From Gemmobacter caeni (lineage in GTDB: Bacteria > Pseudomonadota > Alphaproteobacteria > Rhodobacterales > Rhodobacteraceae): a stretch of DNA of 64,000 nt. The stretch lies in the NCBI RefSeq assembly GCF_003054195.1, contig NZ_QBKP01000003.1, forward strand, positions 186,001 through 250,000, in the 5' to 3' direction. A model generated the notes under the pieces. That model was not told the origin of the DNA, did not search any database, and saw only the letters and a list, made by a program, of their open reading frames with translations. The position numbers were made by a program, and so were the translations under genes. Shown here one piece after another: positions 1,574 through 55,819 of the stretch (position 1 is the stretch's first letter; the number at the start of each line of letters is the position of its first letter).

Positions 1574-3115
1574 TTATTCTGCGGTGGCGTCTTCCACCTG
1601 CGGCTCTGCCGTCTCGTCTGCGGGGCGTTCCTTCAGCTTGAAGCTGCGCATCAGGAAGTCCGGCACATGATCGCCCATACCGACAACACGGTCGTCGCGG
1701 TCATTGCGGCGGCGGTCGTCGCGACGGTCCTCACGGTGGTGATGGTGATGATGCCCGGTGCCATGGGTATGGACCTGCGCCGGGGCAGGGGCGGGCGCCG
1801 GGCTTGCGGGCTTGCGGTCTTCCACCACCTCGGGTTCGCGCGGCGATGCCTCACGCGGAGTGGCCTCGCGCTGCGGCTTCGGCCCCTTGCCCTTCGGGCC
1901 ACGGTCGTCGCGGCGCCGGTCATCCTTGCGGCGGTCATCCCGCTCGCGCGGTTCGGGCAGGGTAAAGCCCTCGGGCAGGCTGCCGCGCGGGATTTCCTGC
2001 TTCACCAGCGATTCGATATTTGTCAGGTATTTCTCGTCATGCGGCGTGGCAATCGAGAACGCCTTGCCCTTGCGCCCGGCGCGGCCGGTACGACCGATGC
2101 GGTGGACGTAATCCTCGGGATGCGAGGGCAGATCGAAGTTGAACACATGGCTGACCGATGGAATGTCCAGCCCGCGCGCCGCCACATCCGAGGCGACCAG
2201 CAGTTGCAGAGACCCGTCGCGGAAGCCATCCAGCGTTTTCATGCGCTGCGACTGGTCCAGGTCGCCATGGATCGGGGCCGCGTTGAACCCATGCGATTTC
2301 AGCGACTTGGCGACCACATCCACATCCATCTTGCGATTGCAGAAGATGATGGCATTGGTGCAGCTCTCACCCTCGGCCCGGATCAGGGCGCGCAGGACGG
2401 CGCGCTTTTCGGCAAAGCTGCGGTCCTTGCGGCTGGGCGTGAACTGCACCAGCGCCTGTTCGATGGTTTCCGAGGTGGTCGATTGCCGCGCCACTTCGAT
2501 CTTCACCGGGTTCGACAGGAAGGTCTTGGTGATCCGCTCGATCTCGGGCGCCATGGTGGCCGAGAAGAAGAAGGTCTGCCGGGTGAAGGGCGTCAGATTG
2601 AATATGCGTTCGATATCGGGAATGAACCCCATGTCCAGCATCCGGTCGGCCTCGTCCACCACCATGATCTGCACGCCGGTCAGCAGAAGCTTGCCGCGTT
2701 CGAAATGGTCCAGCAGACGGCCAGGGGTGGCGATCAGCACGTCCACGCCGCGATCGATCAGCTTGTCCTGTTCGCCGAAGGCCACGCCGCCAATCAGCAG
2801 CGCCTTGGTCAGCTTGGTGTGCTTGGCATAGGTGTCGAAGTTTTCGGCCACCTGCGCCGCCAGCTCACGCGTCGGGCACAGCACGAGGCTGCGCGGCATC
2901 CGGGCGCGGGCACGGCCCTGACCCAGCAGCGTGATCATCGGCAGCGAGAAGCTCGCTGTCTTGCCGGTGCCGGTCTGGGCGATGCCCAGCACGTCGCGGC
3001 CTTCAAGGGCGGGCGGAATGGCCTGCGCCTGAATCGGGGTGGGAGTTTCATAGCCGGCTTCGGCGACGGCTTGCAAAACGCGCGGATCGAGCGCGAGATC
3101 GGAGAACTTGGTCAT
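1574..3115 (-). CDS. rhlE: DEAD-box ATP-dependent RNA helicase, RhlE type
   Basis: Unwinds structured RNA using ATP. All core motifs are present in order: Q motif TPTPIQAQAIP, motif I AQTGTGKT, Ia PTRELAAQ, Ib TPGRLLD, II DEAD, III SAT, V ARGLDIP, VI HRIGRTGRAG. The ATG at 3115 follows AGGA at good spacing; the open frame one codon upstream begins with TTG and is less likely. Residues from about 395 to 513 are a low-complexity tail rich in Arg/Asp, then Pro/Ala, with six consecutive His at residues 455-460 (bases 1736-1753). RhlE-like proteins often have basic disordered tails that bind RNA. The gene faces RNase J, a possible functional partner in RNA decay. The exact subfamily name is an inference. 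Confidence 0.92.
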   Translation of the reverse strand: MTKFSDLALDPRVLQAVAEAGYETPTPIQAQAIPPALEGRDVLGIAQTGTGKTASFSLPMITLLGQGRARARMPRSLVLCPTRELAAQVAENFDTYAKHTKLTKALLIGGVAFGEQDKLIDRGVDVLIATPGRLLDHFERGKLLLTGVQIMVVDEADRMLDMGFIPDIERIFNLTPFTRQTFFFSATMAPEIERITKTFLSNPVKIEVARQSTTSETIEQALVQFTPSRKDRSFAEKRAVLRALIRAEGESCTNAIIFCNRKMDVDVVAKSLKSHGFNAAPIHGDLDQSQRMKTLDGFRDGSLQLLVASDVAARGLDIPSVSHVFNFDLPSHPEDYVHRIGRTGRAGRKGKAFSIATPHDEKYLTNIESLVKQEIPRGSLPEGFTLPEPRERDDRRKDDRRRDDRGPKGKGPKPQREATPREASPREPEVVEDRKPASPAPAPAPAQVHTHGTGHHHHHHREDRRDDRRRNDRDDRVVGMGDHVPDFLMRSFKLKERPADETAEPQVEDATAE

Positions 3116-3233
3116 CAACGTCCTGTCACAGCGGGATCGGCCCGCGGGGAGGTGGAGGGACGCTGCTTGTCCGGGCGCCCCGGCGTCATGGCATACTTTG
3201 CCTTCCGCCCCCTACCGGAAATTTGATCCGTCG

Positions 3234-4262
3234 TCAAGTTGGCCCGCCATGTTCCAGCACATCCTTGTAACTGCCCAGCAGGGGGATATTGCCTTCGAAT
3301 TTCATGCATTCGCGGCGCAGCTGGCGCGCCTCGGGGTCTTCCATGACCTCTTCGAACTTCCGCTTGTGAATGGCGACCGACTGGCGCCGCAACCGCTTCA
3401 GCCGGTCATAGGTCGCATCGTTCAAGGCGTTGAACCGATCCACCAGCCGCGCCCGCCAGGGCGCCATGCTGTCATCCTCGACATAGTTCTTGTTGCGCAG
3501 CGCCCAGTATTTGAGCCCGACCTCGCGGTCATCCTGATGGGCGGAGCCCCTGCGGGTCTTGACCATGAACGTATCCAGATCGCGCACGATGTAATGGTTG
3601 ATCTGCGCAAGGCTTTGTCCACCCGGATCGGTGGAGTTGTAATTCTTGATCTGATATTGCCCCGGCACCAGCCCCGAACCGTTGACGACACGCAACGCGT
3701 CTTCATCCACGCCCTCGCGGGGATTGGGGCGGTGGACGCCCGGGCGTTCAAAATATTTCGGGCGGAACAGACATTTATAGGCGTTGAACCGTTCGTCGTC
3801 GGCCATCACATAATCGGCCATGGTGAAGCGTTCGGTCTGCATGCGGAAGCTTTGCAGCCGCTTGCCGGAATTGCCGAACAGCCGCCAGTTGATCTGTGCC
3901 ACGTCGAAGGGCGGGCTGGCCGCCACGAAATCCTCCAGCCGCCCGTTGCCGGTCTTGATCACCAGAAACTCGTCAAGATCCAGAGCCATGGCAAAATCGG
4001 CCTCGGCGTAGGATTTCAGGCGTGAAGCGCGGATATAGGCCCGCACCTGATGGGTGCCGCGCGCGGCGGCGCTGTTGTCGAAATACCGGATGGCACCCAG
4101 CTTTTGCAGCGCCGTCAGGATGTCCTGCGTCAGATCGTCGGAATCGTTCTGGTAGATCACGATGTCGGTGAAGCCGACTTCCATGTGATGGGCGACCCAT
4201 TCAAGAATGAAGGGGCCTTCGTTCTTCGCAGTGGCAACCAGAAAGGCACGGGGGGCGGACAT
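3234..4262 (-). CDS. Glycosyltransferase family 2-like (PF13704 type) protein
   Basis: 342-aa putative glycosyltransferase. The N-terminus FLVATAKNEGPFILEWVAHH is the usual start of this group, and DLDEF at about residue 93 looks like the DxD metal and nucleotide-sugar site. AGGAGG lies 4 bases before the ATG, so the start is firm. No membrane segment is seen, so it is probably cytosolic or peripheral. It stands alone between the helicase and the prfC pair, so the acceptor (polysaccharide, lipid or protein) cannot be inferred. The many charged residues near the C-terminus are common in this family. Confidence 0.75.
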   Translation of the reverse strand: MSAPRAFLVATAKNEGPFILEWVAHHMEVGFTDIVIYQNDSDDLTQDILTALQKLGAIRYFDNSAAARGTHQVRAYIRASRLKSYAEADFAMALDLDEFLVIKTGNGRLEDFVAASPPFDVAQINWRLFGNSGKRLQSFRMQTERFTMADYVMADDERFNAYKCLFRPKYFERPGVHRPNPREGVDEDALRVVNGSGLVPGQYQIKNYNSTDPGGQSLAQINHYIVRDLDTFMVKTRRGSAHQDDREVGLKYWALRNKNYVEDDSMAPWRARLVDRFNALNDATYDRLKRLRRQSVAIHKRKFEEVMEDPEARQLRRECMKFEGNIPLLGSYKDVLEHGGPT

Positions 4263-8562: not shown

Positions 8563-9567
8563 CTATTTTCCACCTGCGGATTCGCGGCGACCGAGGCCGA
8601 TCTCCTCCAGTTCCTGCCGTCCGGCCTCGGTCCCGAAATGCTGGTTCTGGCTCAGGCCGGGGAATCGCGCCCGCACTTCGGCCGACAGCTCGACCGGCAG
8701 GCGGTTCACCACCGCCTCTGTCACCATCAGGCTTTCGGCGGGCACGCCTTCGGCATAGATGATCTCGTGGCGTTCGAACACCAGGCTGAAGTAATCGACG
8801 AAGGCGCCTTCGCGCAGGAAGATCGTTTCGCCGTTCACCAGATGCTTGGCCTGCACCAGCAGTTCCGAAGTTGGCAGGCCCGGCGTCCGCTGACGCTGGT
8901 ACAGGAACATGCGGTGATGCTGGCTGACGATCAGATCGCCCGCATTGCCCATGGCGCCTGAGGTAATGACGACCGGCGCGAAGGCCCCGACGGCCCGCAG
9001 GGTGGCATTCCCGACCCAGCGGACCGCCTGCGGCCCGTGGTCGCGCGTCAGAACCCGGTCCCCGGCGGTCAGTGTCTCGATGGGACGTTGCGAGCCATTC
9101 GCCATGGTGATCATCGTGCCGCGCGCAAAGCTCACGCACAGAAGATCGGACAGCGGCGTTTCCTCGGGCGCGTCCTCGACCTTGACCAGCGTATAGCCAA
9201 GCCCGGCGGCCATGGGTGACAGCGGCAGCGCGAACAGCCCGTCGCCCGAACCCTCCAGCGCCAGTAGCAACAGTTCGACCCGGTTCGCATCGTCGCCCAT
9301 CAGCGTGTAGCGCGCGACGACCCGCACCGGATCGCCCGGTTGCCCCAGACCGGAGCCCGTCGCCACCTGCTGCGCCTTTGCGGCACGCGCCACCACCAGG
9401 CGCAGCGGCTCGGTGCCGGGTTCAAGTTCGTAGACATCGCCCGCGCAGACATCGTCTGGCAGACCCAGCCCGTCACCCATGTTCACGCCATGCGCGACAT
9501 AAACCGCATCGGCGGGGAAGACCATGCAGGCCTGTCCGGGCAGAAGGCGGGTCGGTACGTCGGTCAT
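8563..9567 (-). CDS. Hint-domain (intein/hedgehog-like) protein
   Basis: 334 aa. Residues 144 to about 285 form a Hint domain: C144 starts CVSFARGTMI, followed by IETLTAGDRVLTRDHG, then VISQHHRM-like ISQHHRMFLYQR and AKHLVNGETI, all standard for the PF13403 group common in Rhodobacteraceae. The N-terminal 140 residues are a variable extension beginning LLPGQACMVFPAD. There is no signal peptide; such proteins are thought to be secreted by non-Sec routes or to self-process, but this is inference. There is no C-terminal His-Asn splice junction and no C-extein, so protein splicing is unlikely and N-S acyl shift or cleavage is the possible chemistry. Confidence 0.85.
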   Translation of the reverse strand: MTDVPTRLLPGQACMVFPADAVYVAHGVNMGDGLGLPDDVCAGDVYELEPGTEPLRLVVARAAKAQQVATGSGLGQPGDPVRVVARYTLMGDDANRVELLLLALEGSGDGLFALPLSPMAAGLGYTLVKVEDAPEETPLSDLLCVSFARGTMITMANGSQRPIETLTAGDRVLTRDHGPQAVRWVGNATLRAVGAFAPVVITSGAMGNAGDLIVSQHHRMFLYQRQRTPGLPTSELLVQAKHLVNGETIFLREGAFVDYFSLVFERHEIIYAEGVPAESLMVTEAVVNRLPVELSAEVRARFPGLSQNQHFGTEAGRQELEEIGLGRRESAGGK

Positions 9568-20261: not shown

Positions 20262-21968
<1,707 letters not shown>

Positions 21969-53708: not shown

Positions 53709-54209
53709 ATGGCCGGCTCCAAACTGGACCCAATCGACCGTCACATTCTGGCCGAACTTCAGGCCGACGGGCGGATGACCAATGTCGAGTTGGCCAAGCG
53801 CGTGGGCATATCGGCGCCGCCCTGTCTGCGCCGGGTGCGGACGCTGGAGGAATCGGGCTACATCAAGGGCTATCATGCCGATGTGGATGCGCGCGAACTG
53901 GGGTTCGAGGTGCAGGTTTTTGCCATGGTGCGGCTGCAAAGCCAGGCCGAGGCGGATCTGAGCGCCTTCGAGGCGCGCTGTCGTGCCTGGCCGCTCGTGC
54001 GTGAATGCCACATGCTGAACGGCGAGATCGACTTCATCCTGAAATGCGTCGCACCGGATCTGTCGACGTTTCAGAGTTTCCTGACGGCCGAACTGACCGC
54101 CGCTGACAATGTGGCCAGCGTGAAGACCAGCCTTGTCATCCGCTGTGCGAAGGACGAGCCGGGCCTGCCGTTCGACGTTCTGGAAGCACGGCTGAGCAAG
54201 AGCGCCTGA
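53709..54209 (+). CDS. Lrp/AsnC family transcriptional regulator
   Basis: 166 aa from the ATG at 53709, with AAGGAT upstream; the frame is open 12 codons earlier. N-terminal HTH (LDPIDRHILAELQADGRMTN, RVGISAPPCLRRV) and a RAM ligand domain (FAMVRLQSQAEADLSAFE, ECHMLNGEIDFILKCV). Probably senses an amino acid. Divergent from trxB, so it may control trxB or itself. Confidence 0.93.
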   Translation: MAGSKLDPIDRHILAELQADGRMTNVELAKRVGISAPPCLRRVRTLEESGYIKGYHADVDARELGFEVQVFAMVRLQSQAEADLSAFEARCRAWPLVRECHMLNGEIDFILKCVAPDLSTFQSFLTAELTAADNVASVKTSLVIRCAKDEPGLPFDVLEARLSKSA

Positions 54210-54237
54210 AGCCGGGGCATATGTTGTTCCGGGGGGA

Positions 54238-54420
54238 GGCCTTGGTCGCCCCAACCGGAGCATCCGACCGCACTTTGAGGATTGGCCGGATGTTCCAGCC
54301 GACAGGTGGCAGCTGAAACACTCAGGCGGCCCCTGATGCTGCGCAGAGGTTCGCAGCGGGGCCGCCCGTACTGAGCTACACAACCTGTTGCGGATGGCTG
54401 GGAGCCAAATTGGGGCAAGG
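54238..54420 (+). ncRNA. Candidate structured RNA of unknown class
   Basis: No convincing coding frame covers this stretch, but nested helices close on each other. Closing helix: 54240-54243 with 54417-54420 and 54248-54254 with 54410-54416. Helix 2: 54257-54266 with 54287-54296 (10 bp, one G-U). Helix 3: 54303-54307 with 54383-54387, supported by 54297-54300 with 54396-54399. Helix 4: 54321-54333 with 54358-54375 (9 bp GGCGGCCCC/GGGGCCGCC plus CTCAG/CTGAG), capped by 54338-54343 with 54352-54357. The G-U pair favours the plus strand slightly. It does not match RNase P, SRP RNA or tmRNA signatures that I know. Confidence 0.5.
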
Positions 54421-54626
54421 ACTTACCCGCCACCATCCGTTCTCGAGGACTAAGGCAAAGGTGGCTGAATTCTGGCGTCTTGTCAAAGTTCCAGCGCTTT
54501 TGTGGCGGTGCTGGCAAAGGTTGTGAAGGGTCGCATAGGATTGTTTCGCAATCTTGCCGCAAACGGGGAGGCATCGGGCAGATCTTTCCCCTTGAAGCGG
54601 ATATCCCGCCCGAATCACCCAAAACG
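54421..54626. other. Gene-free continuation behind the structured element
   Basis: Together with the element before it, this makes 482 bases without a recognisable protein gene (54210-54691). It contains GCCACC and GGTGGC arms (54430-54465) that could form one more hairpin, and a minus-strand TTGACA (54486-54481) with a poor -10 (CACCTT). Nothing else is seen before the terminator. Confidence 0.45.
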
Positions 54627-54657
54627 AAAGGCCGCCCCCGTCAGGGCGCGGCCTTTT
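54627..54657. terminator. Terminator closing the gene-free stretch
   Basis: 9-bp stem AAAGGCCGC with GCGGCCTTT, inner CCC/GGG, followed by TTTT on the plus strand; the flanks also suit the minus-strand small gene that ends 35 bases away. Confidence 0.85.
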
Positions 54658-54691
54658 CGATCTGAAGGGATTTACGGCCGGAACGCGTGGT

Positions 54692-54838
54692 TCAGCGCGC
54701 GGCCTGAGCCCGCTGGGCCGGGGTGGTCGCTTTCACCGCGGCGGGTTTGCGACGGGCGCCGCGCTGCCACGGCATCGCGGGTTGCGCGGTTTCCGAAGCG
54801 GCGATCACCGATTTCAGCCAGCGACGTTCTTTCTTCAT
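54692..54838 (-). CDS. Small basic protein of 48 aa
   Basis: The ATG at 54838 has GCAGGAG nine bases upstream. The peptide starts MKKERRWLKSVIAAS, then QPAMPWQRGARRKPAA and an Ala-rich basic end; it has no membrane segment. I recall similar short proteins starting MKKERRWLKSV in other Rhodobacteraceae, always without function. The basic composition could suit nucleic acid or ribosome binding, which is inference. Confidence 0.7.
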   Translation of the reverse strand: MKKERRWLKSVIAASETAQPAMPWQRGARRKPAAVKATTPAQRAQAAR

Positions 54839-55063: not shown

Positions 55064-55819
55064 TCACAACCGGATACAGGAGATCAGCCGCCCGTAATCT
55101 GCCTCGCCGCGGTGGGTCGTGCGGCGGTAGGAGTAGAATCGCTCGGCGTCGCTGTAGGTACAGTGTCGTGTCCATTCGGCCTCGCCCACGCCCGCCGCGC
55201 GCAGGCGCCACAGCGCATAGCCCGGCAGATCGAACAGGGCGCGGTCGCCCTTGCCATTGGCGAAGAAACGGGCGGTGTCGCGATCATCGTCGATGAAGCT
55301 TTCGACGAATTCGGGGCCAACCTCATAGGTCGCCTGGCTGATGGTCGGGCCGATTACGGCGCGGATGCGTGTGCGGCTCGCTCCCAGGGCCTCCATCGCG
55401 TCCAGCGTCGCCTCCAGCACGCCGTCTTTCGTGCCACGCCAGCCCGCATGGGCCGCCCCGATGACCTGCGCCTCCGGGTCGGCGAACAGCACCGGCTGGC
55501 AATCGGCGGTCAGCACGCCCAGCACCAGCCCCGGCTGGCGGGTCACCATTGCATCGGCGCGTGGCAGCGGCCCCTCATGGGGGCCGGTGACCGTGATCAC
55601 ATCCGGCGAATGCACCTGATGGACACTGACCAGCGCCTCGGGTTCGGCGCCCATGGCCTGCGCCACGCGGCAGCGGTTGATCGCAACCGCCTCGGCCAGA
55701 TCAGAGGAGCCGTTGCCGCAGTTCAGGCCTGCGAAGATACCGGAGGAAGCTCCGCCTTTGCGGGTGAAAAAGCCGTGCCGGATGGGGGCGAGGGTCGGGG
55801 AGGTGATGATCTCGATCAT
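55064..55819 (-). CDS. pgeF: Peptidoglycan editing factor PgeF (YfiH/laccase domain)
   Basis: 251 aa. Multicopper-polyphenol-oxidase fold; E. coli homologue removes faulty L-Ser from muropeptide precursors, while purine nucleoside activities are also reported. HGFFTRKGGASSGIF, TADCQPVLFAD and GAAHAGWRGTKDG (metal His/Cys) are diagnostic. It overlaps midA by four bases (ATGA). Confidence 0.94.
   Translation of the reverse strand: MIEIITSPTLAPIRHGFFTRKGGASSGIFAGLNCGNGSSDLAEAVAINRCRVAQAMGAEPEALVSVHQVHSPDVITVTGPHEGPLPRADAMVTRQPGLVLGVLTADCQPVLFADPEAQVIGAAHAGWRGTKDGVLEATLDAMEALGASRTRIRAVIGPTISQATYEVGPEFVESFIDDDRDTARFFANGKGDRALFDLPGYALWRLRAAGVGEAEWTRHCTYSDAERFYSYRRTTHRGEADYGRLISCIRL

Follow-up and report, generated by a model that had tools for sequence, protein, structure and literature searches.

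The window analysed here, a stretch of 64,000 nucleotides from Gemmobacter caeni, carries the gene lrp and, convergent to it, a small minus-strand unit. Upstream of this unit lie a terminator-like hairpin, a short open reading frame (sORF) for a basic protein and the gene pgeF (Table 1). Both lrp and pgeF flank the unit in all nine loci of the genus that were inspected. The sORF was detected in eight of these (not in L004), and in many Rhodobacterales loci it is located between pgeF and either the small RNA (sRNA) described below or a gene with a Hint domain; its product has no match in Pfam or NCBIfam. In a Tabrizicola-type group (L034, L044, L055, L059, L060, L064, and L065), neither sRNA nor sORF was detected between lrp and pgeF, as if a single deletion had removed both.

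Table 1 Features of the locus in window coordinates
Feature	Position	Strand	Remarks
lrp	53709-54209	+	Convergent neighbour of the sRNA unit; Pfam AsnC/Lrp
Whole unit, revised coordinates	about 54314-54486	-	Promoter, RNA, and terminator
-35 element TTGACA of the sRNA promoter	54481-54486	-	Same in 9/9 genus loci
-10 element CACCTT (CATCTT in most relatives)	54458-54463	-	17-nt spacer, kept
Predicted sRNA, ~138 nt	54314-54451	-	Start placed by inference 7 nt past the -10 element; end is the U-rich tail
GGTAAGTCC box (GGTAAGACC in many relatives)	54419-54427	-	From alignments; missing in some rows, e.g., L004, L005, L048
GCTCAG element directly before the terminator	54371-54376	-	Alignment A3; GCTC(A/T)G across the genus
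Intrinsic-terminator hairpin	54323-54368	-	11-bp lower stem, 4-nt bulge on the 3' side, 6-bp upper stem; covariation in A4/A5 and G-U strand test
Apical loop AACCUCUG	54344-54351	-	CUCUG core, proposed seed; from terminator folds
Weakly U-rich tail past the stem	54314-54322	-	From the sequence
Bidirectional terminator-like hairpin	54627-54657		Between sORF and sRNA promoter; not part of the sRNA
sORF, 48 aa, Lys/Arg-rich, starts MKKERRWLKSVIAAS	54692-54838	-	Neighbour gene upstream of the sRNA
pgeF	55064-55819	-	Beyond the sORF, on the strand opposite to lrp

The minus-strand unit

Read on the minus strand, the conserved blocks follow each other in the order TTGACA-N17-CATCTT-like promoter, GGTAAGACC box, GCTC(A/T)G, hairpin, and modest U tail and, judged by their sequence, they are a complete small transcription unit. 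The promoter (TTGACA-N17-CANNTT) has a spacer of 17 nucleotides in all nine genus loci. The same spacer was present in ten out of ten loci outside the genus, which, together with the duplicate L023, had been collected by means of a promoter pattern allowing 16-18 nucleotides, so that the promoter counts at these loci inform on spacing only. The minus-strand TTGACA, to which the first-pass annotation had given little weight, proved to be the decisive feature, namely a conserved -35 element.

The middle part of the sRNA is poorly conserved. Its U tail is weak in the window (AGTGTTTC); longer T runs are present in L028 and L061. The unit was not flagged in promoter and terminator scans of the window, and folding of the predicted 138 nucleotides as a single sequence was unremarkable (z -1.99, with 8 of 200 shuffles as good). 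Short frames over the hairpin translate alike in several of eight genus copies (around GRPxCEPL) and an ATG precedes GCGCGGTAA in some copies, as might be expected if a small peptide were encoded, alone or by a dual-function RNA. The starts, lengths, and ends of these frames differ among the eight copies, however, the spacer length varies by non-multiples of three, and conserved DNA would show such likeness without any coding; a peptide is regarded as improbable.

Structure and strand of the RNA

In the first-pass annotation, 54238-54420 was taken for a multi-branched RNA structure, with a weak preference for the plus strand, in which a 9-bp GGCGGCCCC/GGGGCCGCC stem was enclosed by a 7+4 bp helix with arms 160 nucleotides apart. 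The 9-bp stem is indeed present, within 54323-54368, and it is conserved. The arms of the closing helix can be read in the window (the 7-bp part at 54249-54255 and 54411-54417), but the helix falls outside the conserved unit and is itself not conserved: when the nine genus loci were aligned, an intact left arm was seen in the window only, an altered one (TCCTCAA) in the sister genome L002, and none that could be recognised in the other seven. Alignment of the region downstream of lrp in the relatives thus yielded conserved blocks but no conserved long-range helix. Stable folding as such was confirmed: for 54210-54420 on the plus strand, the folding energy is -99.2 kcal/mol (z -2.35), a value attained by 2 of 200 shuffles, and for 54210-54660 none of 100 shuffles does as well as the real sequence on either strand (z -2.79 for the plus and -3.46 for the minus strand).

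Evidence that the RNA structure of the terminator hairpin is under selection was obtained from alignments A4 (14 sequences) and A5 (18 sequences). In both, 96.2 % of the cells pair and 18 cells are double-changed, as compared to means of 5.3 (A4) and 5.5 (A5) in shuffled alignments, none of which reached that number in 500 trials. When the partners were slid, 39-56 % of the cells paired and at most six were double-changed. The number of pair types is a less clear measure, as it was reached by 55 (A4) and 15 (A5) of the 500 shuffles; in slid versions of A5, pair types were equal (14) and six pairs were changed on both sides versus seven in the real one. The upper stem occurs as GCUGCG/CGCAGC, GCUGUG/CACAGC, GCUGAG/CUCAGC, GUUGCG/CGCAAC, and GGCAUG/CAUGCC, and the hairpin is kept through matching mutations across some twenty related genera. 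Eight folded terminators, with other stem lengths, are in neither alignment; L008 is present in A1 and A4 and was not included in the sets for the terminator folds, the sRNA profile, the pairwise alignment, and the motif count.

CTCTG was located at the apical loop in all 39 folded terminators, partly paired in a few (e.g., L036 and L052), a count that is biased because the copies had been collected with a DNA match or with covariance model R1, which contains the loop; the divergent L096 carries CCTCAA instead. As related sequences are not independent events and the collecting model includes the loop, the changes within the stem are the firmer evidence.

The strand was derived from wobble pairs. 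In the minus-strand reading of 32 aligned hairpins, G-U occurs in 36 cells and A-C, equivalent to G-U on the plus strand, in a single one; therefore, the RNA is the minus strand, contrary to the earlier preference. Together with the lack of conservation of the closing helix, this ratio led to the rejection of the multi-branched plus-strand fold. The position downstream of lrp and the plus-strand fold (z -2.35 to -2.79) would also fit a 3' UTR of lrp that is structured on the plus strand, or a product processed out of such a UTR. Neither, however, would account for the 36-to-1 wobble ratio and the conserved, oppositely directed promoter. The plus strand lacks a T run past the hairpin, the closing helix is one that the relatives do not share, and visual inspection of the genus loci showed that in four out of nine (L006-L009) lrp is followed by a terminator-like structure of its own, a GC-rich hairpin and T run immediately past the stop codon. 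The long lrp 3' UTR that had been suggested earlier is, consequently, very improbable.

The hairpin might also act as a terminator only, one that shields lrp from convergent transcription and releases no RNA. Its position between convergent genes and its terminator-like character agree with such a role, which nevertheless leaves the conserved promoter some 90-160 nucleotides upstream, the GGTAAGACC box, and the constant loop unexplained, and a separate bidirectional terminator-like hairpin is already present past the sORF. This explanation is given hardly any credence. The latter hairpin, at 54627-54657, had been regarded as the terminator following the RNA; it exists, but in the direction of minus-strand transcription it precedes the RNA.

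The stretch has no match at gathering score in Rfam 15, and nothing came near that score. A tRNA or tmRNA remnant, to which ACTGAGCTAC (the complement of the tRNA D-arm-like GTAGCTCAGT) had drawn attention, was discarded, ARAGORN giving just two tRNAs, elsewhere in the window. The highest-scoring chance match, Proteo-phage-1 (RF03044), was also rejected: it scored 18 bits where 42 are required (E 3.7) and is on the plus strand, the wrong one. A divergent housekeeping RNA, another earlier suggestion, thus finds no support in Rfam or ARAGORN. At 21527-21816 on the plus strand of the window, Rfam reports 5_ureB_sRNA with 105 bits; we suspect that conserved coding sequence of urease is what the model picks up here, and not an antisense RNA.

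What is left of the earlier proposals is the standalone sRNA, on the minus strand: the conserved promoter, the covarying terminator hairpin, the constant loop, the conserved locus, and the lack of an Rfam match all argue for it. The unit is very probably an sRNA gene with a sigma-70-type promoter, a predicted product of about 138 nucleotides, and an intrinsic terminator, the RNA most likely acting in trans via its loop.

Distribution and predicted mode of action

A DNA search of 147 related genomes gave matches in 17, that of the window included. The hairpin was matched in 9 of the 11 genomes of the genus (again with that of the window); outside the genus there were eight matches, seven of which were confined to the GC-rich hairpin at the query's far end. 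Using the promoter pattern (spacers of 16-18 nucleotides) and alignments on 80 named lrp loci, 11 further units were retrieved, counting L023, which is from the same genome as L005.

Two covariance models were used to extend the survey. R1, a model of the 3' module built from 19 sequences, scored at least 33 bits at the locus in 26 of 89 sources, including the window, and has one strong match in the genome; no plasmid copies of the unit were found. Among 394 genomes of the family, 39 had an R1 match at E 0.01 or better. Thirty of the loci were examined: 22 matches are at the lrp/sORF/pgeF locus, one is inside the Hint_2 gene of that locus, and seven are elsewhere. TTGAC with a spaced -10-like hexamer was present upstream of 19 of the 20 non-genus matches at the locus (the hexamer is poor in L113, L119, and L127, and L120 lacks TTGAC), and TTGAC in neither of the two non-locus matches listed; five of the genomes behind those 20 matches are also represented in the set of named loci, and three of the five had served to train R1. 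R2, a two-stem model built from sRNAs only, found a full-length match (at least 47.6 bits) in 10 of the 11 genus genomes, the eleventh being an 87 %-complete draft. In 390 genomes of the order, all full-length R2 matches (8 of 8 loci) were at the locus, as compared to none of 13 short ones. Weak matches to either model mean little, because ordinary GC-rich terminators reach 27-35 bits with both of them. The unit is also present at this locus in other genera of the Rhodobacter group.

A constant loop on a freely covarying stem looks like a base-pairing seed or a protein-binding loop, its constant core being only 5-6 nucleotides long. CCUCUG is complementary to CAGAGG, which resembles a Shine-Dalgarno sequence; translational control of a set of mRNAs, probably with the help of Hfq, is therefore the most likely function, and action in trans, by analogy, the most likely mode. 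RNA polymerase would start at TTGACA-N17-CACCTT and stop at the GC-rich intrinsic terminator (54323-54368). The upper hairpin would present the CCUCUG loop, unchanged, on top of a stem that changes by paired mutations. Purine-rich stretches of the CAGAG/CAGAGG type, in or close to ribosome-binding sites, may then serve as partners of this pyrimidine loop. Hfq or another RNA chaperone could assist in the pairing, upon which the translation or stability of the mRNAs concerned would change.

Intergenic, trans-acting bacterial sRNAs of the Hfq type have their own sigma-70-type promoter, a length of some 100-200 nucleotides, an intrinsic terminator, and a conserved single-stranded seed. The sRNA predicted here resembles them in its promoter, its predicted length, and its candidate seed, and its hairpin is terminator-like, with a covarying stem and a U tail that is good in some relatives and weak in the window; it differs in that the terminator hairpin would itself carry the seed, in its loop, and in having no match in Rfam 15. 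The Cuckoo RNAs, such as CcsR of Rhodobacter sphaeroides, carry pyrimidine-rich, anti-Shine-Dalgarno-like loops, with CCUCCUCCC in the loops of two hairpins. The pyrimidine-rich loop is common to both, but here it is one CCUCUG loop, and CCTCCTCCC, which would correspond to the CCUCCUCCC loops of a Cuckoo RNA, is absent from 54314-54451 on the minus strand.

UTR-derived sRNAs have been described in R. sphaeroides: UpsM originates from the dcw cluster, as part of its 5' leader, and UdsC from a 3' UTR. The likeness is that the sRNA would come from sequence that is, or was, an untranslated region of an mRNA. The difference is that here the gene of that mRNA would be gone and that the sRNA has a terminator of its own, for which a hairpin of what used to be coding sequence is the apparent source. 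Supplementary tables aside, the sRNA is not named in the portions consulted of the work on R. sphaeroides sRNAs and CcsR, on RNA-seq sRNA screens, on sRNA origins, or on structured RNAs of the Rhodobacterales (PMC2864571). The main text of the StsR paper, as far as consulted, mentions neither lrp nor trxB (PMC8307010), and the literature yielded no paper that joins Gemmobacter with sRNA, or the Hint domain with Rhodobacter and sRNA.

The Hint_2 gene and the probable origin of the sRNA

In 30 of the 80 named loci, a gene for a Hint_2-domain protein occupies the same place, on the same strand, as the sRNA. The presence of PF13403 was confirmed in the two genes scanned (L030 and L053, about 263 aa), both of which end at most 5 nucleotides from the lrp stop codon, and a TTGAC box is located upstream of the leader in 23 of the 30 genes. 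Of the other named loci, 18 have the sRNA (17 plus L096) and 32 have neither; not a single locus has both.

The two kinds of locus share sequence features at the 5' end. Of 38 sRNAs, 14 have TGTCCNTCTG, with at most one mismatch, within 60 nucleotides past the -10 element, as do 8 of 23 Hint leaders; the means after shuffling were 0.14 and 0.07, respectively, and the motif had been picked after both groups had been seen. Ten of the 30 Hint genes were chosen for folding (for L069, the eleventh, no position was obtained). A hairpin in the first codons that resembles that of the sRNA, with a lower stem, an upper stem, a CCTCT(G)-containing loop, and a 3' bulge, was observed in five of them (L030, L039, L053, L066, and L071); since the other five are without it, it is not a property of most of the locus Hint_2 genes folded. 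Between genes this hairpin differs in pairs (GGCAATCTC/GAGATTGCC versus GGCGACCTC/GAGGTCGCC). In a synonymous-codon test of 29 genes it received no general support (mean z -0.46); the values were -5.0 in L039, about -0.9 in L066 and L071, and +0.1 in L030.

Direct comparisons gave a mixed picture. R2 finds the Hint hairpin in four of the 30 genes, L066 (E 7e-5), L071 (4e-4), L030 (0.16), and L053 (0.18), and in a search with an sRNA profile, 3 of 19 Hint 5' ends (L066, L071, and L053) scored above all 760 shuffles. When 37 sRNAs were aligned pairwise with 19 Hint 5' ends, the mean best score was 50.2, as compared to 42.2 for other windows of the same loci (sd 1.0, highest of 30 being 44.4) and 42.8 for the reverse complement; the top single pair, at 65, was little above the best control pair at 62. 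The full sRNA profile run against all loci had L066 as its best match with an E value of 0.13 only, and profiles built from the Hint side did not find the sRNAs. Common descent of the sRNA and the 5' end of the Hint_2 mRNA is quite probable.

The genome has 11 Hint_2 matches, among them another Hint_2-domain gene in the window itself (8722-9132, minus strand). That one of these paralogues might be the locus gene, moved, was considered and rejected: of the ten that were compared with the two query genes, the best reached E 1e-28 at 36 % identity, and every one of the 30 locus genes gave a stronger match.

A separate observation concerns the leaders of the Hint_2 genes (L030, L032, L038, L049, L050, L053, L071, L083, and others). 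They contain a GGTGGGGGCC core, a hairpin with a UGGGGG loop that is mostly CGGTGGGGGCCG, some 800-900 nucleotides from the end of lrp on the minus strand and 48-79 nucleotides past the -35 element. The core is unchanged in 18 of 18 aligned leaders, which had been picked from the 30 with a pattern close to the core. Five loci were scanned against Rfam and gave no match for the leader, which is a candidate leader RNA of its own.

A tree of TrxB, Lrp, and PgeF was made for 99 loci (103 assembled, four dropped); before the tree, L023 and L105 were dropped as duplicates and L071, L107, L113, and L127 for missing genes. All sRNA loci except L096 fall in one part of it, near Defluviimonas, which has the Hint_2 gene, and this gene is also present on deep branches. 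The metagenome bin L096 also has the unit at this locus (3115-3290, minus strand; 37.8 bits), in diverged form and with a TTGACA promoter, and is placed among Hint-bearing lineages, outside the main sRNA clade. With loci that have neither gene ignored, it requires two changes on the tree; because the tree test does not reject one clade with the other sRNA loci (p-AU 0.243), we do not decide between a single origin and two, and the change may have happened twice.

It is reasonably probable that a protein-coding Hint_2 mRNA was turned into an sRNA in place, with loss of the coding body and retention of the promoter, the leader, and the first-codon hairpin. The conversion would have taken place in an ancestor of the Rhodobacter/Gemmobacter/Tabrizicola/Cypionkella group that had the Hint_2 gene downstream of lrp, and the coding hairpin, with its CCUCU(G) loop and 3' bulge, would have become both terminator and seed of a stand-alone sRNA. 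The unit might, alternatively, be a mere vestige, a promoter, leader remnant, and terminator left behind after loss of the Hint_2 gene, transcribed and functionless. The sharing of locus and strand with that gene, the poor conservation of the middle region, and the absence of the sRNA from several lineages (e.g., four of the five named Tabrizicola loci) would agree with this. Compensatory changes and a constant loop over many genera, however, need lasting selection, and promoter spacing has been held over the same range; a functionless remnant is accordingly unlikely.

The predicted sRNA, taken as a functional RNA, is a bacterial sRNA of a known kind, and what is unusual about it, if confirmed, is its origin. 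With it, the Rhodobacter-group bacteria gain an sRNA gene absent from Rfam 15 that has a clear strand, promoter, terminator, and candidate seed. Should the origin from a Hint_2 mRNA be true, this would be a traceable case of a bacterial regulatory RNA arising, in which both the state before (gene, leader, and coding hairpin) and the state after (sRNA) are present at the same locus in living relatives. Conversion in place would also imply that the 5' end of the Hint_2 mRNA already had a job as an RNA.
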